Below, piece after piece: positions 26,358 to 54,698 of a DNA stretch of 64,000 nt. Position 1 is the stretch's first letter, and each line of letters opens with the position of its first letter. A program made the position numbers and the translations under genes. The stretch is from Gammaproteobacteria bacterium (lineage in GTDB: Bacteria; Pseudomonadota; Gammaproteobacteria; Thiotrichales; Thiotrichaceae): assembly GCA_018822845.1 (NCBI GenBank), contig JAHJJD010000103.1, positions 1-64,000 on the forward strand, written 5' to 3'. The notes beneath the pieces are model-generated. The model saw only the letters and a program-made list of their open reading frames with translations, was not told the origin of the DNA and searched no databases.

Positions 26358-26409
26358 GACGTGCAGGCCAATACTGATGGGGGATTGAAGAGGATACAGG
26401 AAAAAGAAA

Positions 26410-26753
26410 TGAGCTGATCTGTAAGCCGGGTTCTGTCGTGGACAATCATTCATCTTGGATGCATGTCACCATGCACCTCTAGCAACCTACCCGGATGCAG
26501 TGCGGGTCACACCAATGCATCCCTATTTGGTCTTGCTCCAGACGGGGTTTACCGTGCCGTCGACTGTTGCCAGCGACGCGGTGCGCTCTTACCGCACCAT
26601 TTCACCCTTACCTCCGGCAAGCCGGTTTGGCGGTATAATTTCTGTGGCACTTTCCGTCGGCTTGCGCCGCCCAGGCGTTACCTGGCGTCTTACCCTATGG
26701 AGCCCGGACTTTCCTCCATTCCGCAAGCAGAACAGCGATTGCCCAATCAGCTC
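26410..26753 (-). ncRNA. rnpB: RNase P RNA
   Basis: The catalytic RNA of RNase P, about 344 nucleotides, type A. On the minus strand the conserved 5' block GGAGGAAAGTCCGGGCTCC and the 3' blocks GGTAGGTTGCTAGAGG and ACAGAACCCGGCTTACAG are present. The ends pair: GAGCTGAT at the 5' end with ATCAGCTC at the 3' end forms helix P1, which sets the boundaries to within a few bases. The gene sits between a small membrane protein gene and the mraZ promoter. Confidence 0.96.
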
Positions 26754-26777
26754 AGCGCAGACAATAACAGATAGCCA

Positions 26778-28061: not shown

Positions 28062-28099
28062 CTGCAACATGTCGAATCTGTTACAGTACCGTCCTGATG

Positions 28100-30109
<2,010 letters not shown>

Positions 30110-53770: not shown

Positions 53771-54121
53771 ATGTTAAAGATGTCGATACTTGCTTGTTTG
53801 TACGCCTGCCTGTTGATACCGCTGTCTGCCCAAGCCATGTACATTTGTCGCCCAAATTTCACGCGCACACCTCCAAAAATTGTTGGCTTAGAATATGAAG
53901 ATGCGCGTATCACTCTTCTCGAAAATGGCTGGGAGCCCGTCCAGAAATCATTCGGCAGACTTCCGGAAACAGAGCGATGCGAAATTGAAAGCAACAAGAA
54001 AAGCTGCCAGTTCATCTTCAGGGATCCCCCTCATCACTACGCTCTGGTAGTTAAAGCGGAATATAACGTGGGTCAAACTGAACTGAAGGTGGTGGAGCAT
54101 TCCTTCCGTTGCAGGATTTGA
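53771..54121 (+). CDS. Small secreted protein with a PASTA-like segment
   Basis: 116 residues with AAGGAGGAG before the ATG. A signal peptide (MLKMSILACLYACLLIPLSAQA) precedes a mature part with four cysteines. The stretch PPKIVGLEYEDARITLLENGW resembles the start of PASTA domains (VPDVVGLSYEEAxxxLxxxGF), which bind muropeptides, but only one such half-unit is present. Probably periplasmic or outer-surface. No family can be named with confidence. Confidence 0.65.
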   Translation: MLKMSILACLYACLLIPLSAQAMYICRPNFTRTPPKIVGLEYEDARITLLENGWEPVQKSFGRLPETERCEIESNKKSCQFIFRDPPHHYALVVKAEYNVGQTELKVVEHSFRCRI

Positions 54122-54256: not shown

Positions 54257-54286
54257 CACAAACCCCGGTTCACCTATGCTTAGCTT

Positions 54287-54343
54287 GTGAGGGAGTGTTA
54301 AGCATTTAACCCGCTGCTCCAAGCCCGTGCAGCGGGTTTTTTT
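54287..54343 (+). ncRNA. Candidate small RNA 1
   Basis: A short transcript of about 57 nucleotides is predicted from the TATGCT hexamer (54275-54280) to a strong terminator (stem AACCCGCTGC / GCAGCGGGTT at 54308-54338, then seven T residues or more). No gene on this strand lies between the previous stop (54121) and this terminator, 190 bases later, so it is not simply the end of that gene unless its 3' UTR is long. The 5' part is G-rich (GTGAGGGAGTG). Confidence 0.45.
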
Positions 54344-54345
54344 AT
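54308..54345 (+). terminator. Terminator of candidate small RNA 1
   Basis: A 10-base stem with an 11-base loop followed by TTTTT and TATTC. Confidence 0.85.
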
Positions 54346-54394
54346 TCTTCTTGACCCCCCGCGCGCTACGGATTGCCACCGCCTGACCATCAAT

Positions 54395-54408
54395 TTGATA
54401 TAAATCAA
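54395..54408 (+). promoter_or_regulatory. Perfect FNR/ANR box
   Basis: TTGATATAAATCAA, identical to the FNR consensus TTGAT-N4-ATCAA. Its centre is about 60 bases before the expected start of the second small RNA, a distance used for class I activation. Confidence 0.7.
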
Positions 54409-54459
54409 AAAATGACTTGATTATTGACCAATGTTGAACTATCCCTTATTGCTGTACGG

Positions 54460-54553
54460 TGTTTCCTCTCCTAGCGATAACAACAAGCGTGTAGTAATAC
54501 TCCAACCACCTTGGAGCTTGCGGGCAAGACTGGAGAAGTCTTGCCCTTTTTCT
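54460..54553 (+). ncRNA. Candidate FNR-controlled small RNA 2
   Basis: A predicted RNA of about 90 nucleotides with no credible protein. The 5' end is pyrimidine-rich (TTTCCTCTCC), complementary to Shine-Dalgarno-type sequences. A small hairpin follows (TCCAA / TTGGA), and then a strong terminator (stem GGGCAAGAC / GTCTTGCCC, 54522-54546, then TTTTT). With the FNR box upstream this resembles FnrS and AniS, known FNR-dependent regulatory RNAs. The transcription start is only approximate; TATTGC or TACGGT could be the -10 element. Confidence 0.5.
54522..54553 (+). terminator. Terminator of candidate small RNA 2
   Basis: A nine-base perfect stem with a seven-base loop followed by TTTTTCTT. Confidence 0.88.
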
Positions 54554-54698
54554 TGCCACTCATCCGAAATGGAATTAAATCACCGCTGTGCGGGTCTATA
54601 TGATCTAGAATCGTAAAATAATAGTATATAGAAATAATCAGGTATTCCAGCGGGCGCAACGTTACAGCCTGCGCCTGCGGACACCGTAGGAGTAAGAT

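Follow-up and report, generated by a model that had tools for sequence, protein, structure and literature searches.

Locus A, the presumed small RNA gene studied here, lies in an intergenic span of 577 bases, between a small ORF without a match in Pfam (53771-54121) and a gene for a C92-family peptidase (PF05708; 54699-55715). The span is part of the window, that is, the whole stretch of 64,000 nucleotides that was analyzed (contig C95 of genome G000, which comprises 3,999,244 bases in 130 contigs). The source genome belongs to Thiothrix and carries genes for FNR and Hfq as well as 19 perfect FNR boxes. An earlier note on this DNA had described a perfect TTGAT-N4-ATCAA box ahead of a protein-free segment with a CU-rich run and a strong terminator, and had read this layout as an FNR-activated RNA of the FnrS/AniS type (AniS is another name for FnrS of pathogenic Neisseria). 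The layout itself was recovered in full (Table 1). The box, TTGATATAAATCAA, is the single exact match in the window, the pyrimidine run TTTCCTCTCC begins 53 bases 3' of it, and the terminator with its tail has a computed energy of -18.8 kcal/mol. There is no convincing ORF in the segment; the sole plus-strand ORF of at least 60 codons (61 aa, 54431-54616) continues across the terminator, and a Pfam search gave no match to it. Furthermore, 54461-54553 folds better than shuffled sequences (z -2.68). Transcription from the upstream ORF should be ended by the first terminator of Table 1, and therefore locus A would need a start of its own.

Table 1. Features of locus A and its 5' flank, in window coordinates
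Feature	Positions	Strand	Basis
Terminator-like hairpin, 8 pairs, T-rich tail	54321..54339	+	Terminator scan
Perfect FNR box TTGATATAAATCAA	54395..54408	.	Exact motif search
Presumed promoter region of locus A	54409..54461	+	Matrix scan, E. coli-like sigma70 frequencies
Pyrimidine run TTTCCTCTCC, presumed seed in the earlier note	54462..54471	+	Sequence
Presumed small RNA body of locus A, ~90-105 nt depending on start	54459..54553	+	Fold, body alignment
Hairpin core CTCCAACCACCTTGGAG, patch common to T. singaporensis (L031:5795)	54500..54516	+	Sequence comparison
Intrinsic terminator of locus A, T-rich tail	54522..54553	+	Stem 54522-54546, 10 pairs

Results

Promoter geometry of locus A

Promoters were scored with a matrix of E. 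coli-like sigma70 frequencies. The best-scoring promoter, TTGATA-N18-GATTAT, overlaps the FNR box and would start transcription at ~54431. The other candidate starts, at ~54447, 54452, 54459, and 54467, are all weak and would put the center of the box at -45.5, -50.5, -57.5, and -65.5, respectively. For comparison, among 23 FNR-activated promoters of E. coli, the FNR site is centered at -41.5 +/- 4 in 19 and at -60.5 in one (PMC3688515). None of the scored promoters of locus A has FNR at -41.5 or -61.5, and therefore, repression by FNR is possible and activation putative. The activation by FNR that the earlier note had proposed is thus not supported by the scored promoters, none of which sets the box at an established activating distance.

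FNR boxes of the genome and the chance of the layout

The exact FNR motif occurs 19 times in the 3.999 Mb of the genome, compared to 0 times for the pattern read backwards. By our reading of the ORF maps, 7 of the 19 boxes share bases with a long ORF, in some cases near an end of it; the other 12 (the one in the window included) lie outside long ORFs or merely touch codons that may be their first. A perfect box is found 87 bases upstream of fnr (NF008365, 246.8 bits; cut-off, 228). Other genes next to boxes match NrdD (cut-off passed for one of two models) and, below the respective cut-offs, NapA (a partial gene), CydA (902.6 bits; cut-off, 968), and a PhsA-like oxidoreductase; models of hydrogenase maturation proteins, a sulfur globule protein, and a hemerythrin domain are matched as well. 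The excess of the exact motif and the identity of the neighboring genes therefore argue that, in this organism, the motif is indicative of control by FNR. Hfq was found above cut-off in all 16 Thiothrix genomes by profile search. With genes for FNR and Hfq and 19 perfect boxes, several of them near genes of anaerobic metabolism, an FNR-linked small RNA is plausible. Near-matches, on the other hand, are not enriched in the window: sites with at most one mismatch number 4 versus 2.30 expected, and 23 of 100 shuffles reach 4.

How often would such a layout arise by chance? A terminator hit alone means little, because the scan found 3 sites in 2.2 kb and shuffled sequences give 1.7. Of 916 ORF-free positions sampled in the window, 38 (4%) lead to a comparable terminator without an intervening ORF, and so do 4 of 152 site-strands at other FNR boxes (76 sites: 18 of the genome's own 19, locus A excluded, and 58 of 70 from five relatives). 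A looser box-to-terminator scan of the same 76 sites returned 11 site-strands, and in 6 of these no ORF overlaps the layout. With about 12 boxes outside long ORFs and a layout rate of 4%, one chance layout is unsurprising, and the box-to-terminator layout taken alone is weak, suggestive evidence for locus A. Support beyond the layout comes from the terminator that ends upstream transcription and from a partial homologue in one relative (see below). The scans also exposed two further boxes from which an ORF-free stretch leads to a terminator, at L111:668-792 (G015) and at L120:671-880 (G002; a tandem pair); they are possible additional small RNAs.

Locus A in relatives

A BLAST search with 54380-54560 matched the own genome alone among 57 genomes searched (0/56 others). 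The C92 peptidase gene is present in 13 of the 16 Thiothrix genomes, and the 600 to 700 bases upstream of it were compared in all 13. Within these bases, locus A is missing from 11 of the 12 other genomes, among them the two nearest by peptidase (88% and 86%), which have a different sequence at this place. The remaining one, "Candidatus Thiothrix singaporensis" (G005; L020, L031), has a counterpart at the same position. Common to both is a patch, GTAAT..ACTCC.ACCAC.TTGGAG, ahead of a hairpin. The box of the counterpart, TTGATATTTGTCAG, has two mismatches, CTCCACCACTTTGGAG, preceded by GTAATCCA, follows 100 bases on from the box (91 in the window), and the T tail of the hairpin is weaker. The CU-rich run TTTCCTCTCC is absent from the counterpart, and thus the seed that the earlier note had singled out is not common to the sole partial homologue.

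In local alignments of locus A with the counterpart, 17 of 1000 shuffles attained the score when the box was included, 9 of 1000 when it was left out (8 of 1000 in a repeat), and 1 of 1000 when only the transcript body was aligned. End to end, 0 of 500 shuffles attained the score when the box was included and 24 of 1000 when the body was aligned; without the box, the alignment was no better than shuffles (330/1000). These figures are optimistic, because the counterpart was the best of 12 regions compared; for the 11 other upstream regions, 11 to 292 of 300 shuffles reached the local score, the best being that of G002. MAFFT aligned the shared hairpin poorly. Furthermore, the box in T. singaporensis lies directly 3' of a reading frame resembling the CxxCxxCC (PF03692) protein of L024, and therefore the hairpin could serve that gene there. 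At L024:5316-5506, in one of the two nearest genomes, a 27-codon reading frame and the CxxCxxCC (PF03692) gene are preceded by a perfect FNR box, which lies 685 bases ahead of the C92 peptidase gene; no terminator was noticed by eye.

The core pattern of locus A has 5 matches in 63 family genomes. The 3 besides locus A and T. singaporensis were considered as further copies and rejected, as they look coding. A looser box-plus-core pattern occurs in 12 of the 63 genomes, with the full core in those of locus A and T. singaporensis only. Conservation in relatives, which the earlier note had named as a check, is thus confined to a partial homologue in 1 of 12 genus genomes; BLAST added none. Judged by these comparisons, locus A is thinly conserved; overall, an FNR-linked small RNA gene at this place is plausible, with support that is moderate at best.

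RNA-family and target searches for locus A

Rfam holds an FnrS family. No Rfam family was found on locus A, neither in a search of the whole window at the gathering level nor in searches around locus A and its counterpart at E values up to 10. The target prediction suggested in the earlier note was equally unrewarding: when paired with the crudely defined translation starts of 47 genes (one for superoxide dismutase, the other 46 in the window), locus A did no better than its shuffled versions, and silencing of aerobic genes by its RNA is hypothetical. Of the FnrS/AniS-type reading, the box, the non-coding segment, the terminator, the genes for FNR and Hfq, and one partial homologue stand; Rfam gave no match, and none of the scored promoters has the box at an activating distance.

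Locus B, an FNR-box locus found throughout the genus

Scanning the FNR boxes of relatives for box-to-terminator layouts exposed a second locus, B, whose copy in the own genome (G000:C121:66282-66454; L126, L155) lies outside the window (relatives, L124-L139). BLAST with the G013 copy found locus B in 16 of 16 Thiothrix genomes and in none of 47 other genomes of the family. A covariance model of B was run with strict filters on 143 genomes of the class, each from a different genus, and no more than 27 candidates were scored in any genome listed; among the matches listed, the own genome was the only hit.

The predicted promoter of locus B has a fixed geometry. All 16 copies have the box TTGA[C/T]-N4-ATCAA, which is the perfect TTGAT form in 6, the own copy not among them. 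In the 16-sequence alignment, the -35 element reads TTGTAA in 13, TTGTAT in 2, and TTGTGG in 1, and the -10 element, at a spacing of 17 bases, reads TGTAAT in 10, TTTAAT in 5, and TCTAAT in 1. In 16 of 16, a distance of 61.5 bases separates the center of the box from the start that the -10 element predicts, a geometry that would fit activation by FNR. Downstream follows a 5' hairpin with 9 pairs that show two-sided changes, out of 25 predicted pairs overall. Its anti-Shine-Dalgarno loop contains GATG, TT, and GTTACCTCC, which are invariant in the 16 sequences, as is AACGCTCTACATACCCTAAAGCA after the hairpin; a terminator follows. Because the loop and spacer vary in length by one to three bases, the copies share no reading frame. 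Rfam searches on 6 of the 16 loci gave no family, the best match being SorY with 24.7 bits (gathering, 111).

In each of the six neighborhoods read, locus B is divergent from hemN, and fnr lies on the far side of hemN. The hemN assignment rests on TIGR00538 above cut-off in five neighborhoods; in the remaining one, it rests on Radical_SAM and HemN_C domains. The fnr gene was assigned by NF008365 above cut-off in three (own, G005, and G009), as Crp-type by Pfam in two, and by eye in one. Since B is divergent from hemN, the box might also serve hemN.

A three-sequence MAFFT alignment suggested that locus A might be a paralogue of B, but this was ruled out by model score and shuffles. Against the covariance model of the 16 B sequences, locus A scored 2.5 bits (E 0.25 in an unfiltered search of 221 bases), compared to 119.1 bits for the own B copy. 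In local alignments of locus A with 5 of the 16 B rows, between 98 and 206 of 300 shuffles attained the score. By these sequence comparisons, no relation between A and B is detectable.

The complement of the own B loop (AGAGGAGGTAACGA) resembles the start of a superoxide dismutase gene, AGAGGAGTAACGA, one base short (L044:1277-1350, own genome). Among the genes that FnrS regulates in E. coli, sodB is given (PMC3688515). The energy of the whole duplex of B with the superoxide dismutase start is -29.8, with a mean of -28.4 for 47 starts and -27.3 for shuffled B. The superoxide dismutase mRNA as a possible target of B is only a lead, because the pairing was seen in one genome, involves a ribosome-site-like sequence, and has a duplex energy near the mean of all starts; no other locus examined in relatives carried that gene.

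Neighboring elements in the window

Ahead of the C92 peptidase gene, 54571-54698 contains a promoter-like sequence, GGAATTAAAT ... GGTCTATA, which resembles promoters of the extracytoplasmic-function sigma type, and a GC-rich inverted-repeat leader. Of the 13 genomes with the peptidase gene, 10 have GGAATTAAAT ahead of it and 11 have GGTC[T/A]ATA. Just 5' of locus A, 54270-54345 forms a two-hairpin, terminator-ended element. Its similarity to anti-hemB is below the Rfam threshold (24.9 bits; gathering, 49.5), and this assignment was rejected; BLAST found no match to the element in 62 other family genomes. The window also carries an RNase P RNA (26406-26754, minus strand, 347.1 bits) and a TPP riboswitch (28094-28189, plus strand, 71.7 bits), both ordinary.

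Discussion

In sum, our data point, tentatively, toward locus A as a stand-alone, non-coding RNA gene tuned by FNR, which is the best of the explanations considered even though we would not call it probable. The box, two terminators, and genes for FNR and Hfq are present, a convincing ORF is absent, and one partial homologue occupies the same place in a relative. From this we infer a short transcription unit between the two terminators, whose product would be a non-coding RNA of ~90 to 105 nt with a hairpin plus terminator. The transcript and its start are predicted, as are the direction of FNR control and all targets: FNR bound just upstream may tune synthesis, such that the RNA level would change with oxygen, and the RNA might pair with mRNA leaders with the help of Hfq.

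Somewhat less likely, but still to be taken seriously, the layout could be accidental, with an unused or unrelated FNR box standing before a terminator left over from rearranged genes and no small RNA being made. The 4% layout rate at ORF-free positions, the weak promoter, the lack of the locus in most relatives, and a neighborhood that varies between genomes all speak for such an accident. It explains less well why patch, box, and hairpin recur at the same place in T. singaporensis, and why two terminators follow each other with no gene between them.

A small RNA gene that FNR represses, or whose promoter is independent of FNR, is rather unlikely; RNA polymerase would then use a promoter on or right beside the box, and the RNA would be made with oxygen and fall without it. 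This possibility draws on the best promoter, which sits on the box, and on E. coli, where FNR sites at repressed promoters are widely spread, from -125.5 to +1 (PMC3688515). However, the best promoter of the T. singaporensis counterpart in the matrix scan is off the box, and the geometry of locus B in the same genome fits activation. It is very improbable that the stretch serves the C92 peptidase and acyl-CoA dehydrogenase genes 3' of it as a leader or attenuator under FNR control. These genes are on the same strand, the first beginning 290 bases past the box, but are separated from it by the terminator, have promoter-like and leader sequences of their own, and in most of the genomes lack locus A or an FNR box at that place.

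As a putative FNR-tuned RNA gene, locus A is best viewed next to known systems. Like locus A, whose likeness is one of layout only, FnrS of E. coli and enterobacteria combines an upstream FNR box with a non-coding segment, a pyrimidine-rich stretch that could pair with Shine-Dalgarno sequences, and a terminator. The FNR site of E. coli FnrS is placed at -41.5 (PMC3032703) or -42.5 (PMC3688515), and more than 30 repressed mRNAs are given for it (PMC8139620); locus A, in contrast, has no scored promoter at that distance and no match to any Rfam family. FnrS of Neisseria is described as a likely functional equivalent without sequence homology; the gonococcal RNA has 108 nt by RNA-seq, a 260-fold anaerobic induction of a fusion, and a predicted class II site (PMC3032703). 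It resembles locus A in its FNR box, a length of ~100 nt, a hairpin, an unstructured part, and a terminator, but its expression was demonstrated by RNA-seq and fusion (same source), whereas locus A is known here from sequence alone. Locus B has in common with locus A the genome, an FNR box, a pyrimidine-rich stretch, and a terminator, and differs from it by its presence in the whole genus and its box at -61.5.

The FnrS-like description fits locus B much better than locus A of the same genome. The idea of the earlier note was thus right in kind for this organism, but its strong example is locus B. It is more likely that B is the main FNR-type small RNA of the genome and A a lineage-restricted extra. 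Among the papers on Thiothrix listed in literature searches, none concerned gene regulation in Thiothrix, judging by titles and the beginnings of abstracts.

As a more speculative proposal, to which we give a little less credence than to the stand-alone RNA gene at locus A, Thiothrix may have an FNR small-RNA circuit of its own, independent of enteric FnrS and neisserial AniS. Its genus-wide component, locus B, divergent from hemN beside fnr, would be driven by FNR at -61.5, a position rare in E. coli, and its invariant loop with GUUACCUCC would mask ribosome sites, perhaps including that of the superoxide dismutase mRNA. Locus A would be a young second FNR-linked RNA that has arisen or survived in two lineages only.

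FNR-controlled small RNAs have been described in few groups only. With locus B comes a family whose hairpin covaries, whose promoter elements and box keep constant distances, and whose seed is defined. Should A and especially B prove real, filamentous sulfur oxidizers living at oxic-anoxic boundaries would share this regulatory logic with the known systems by way of unrelated sequences, and thus as a convergent solution.
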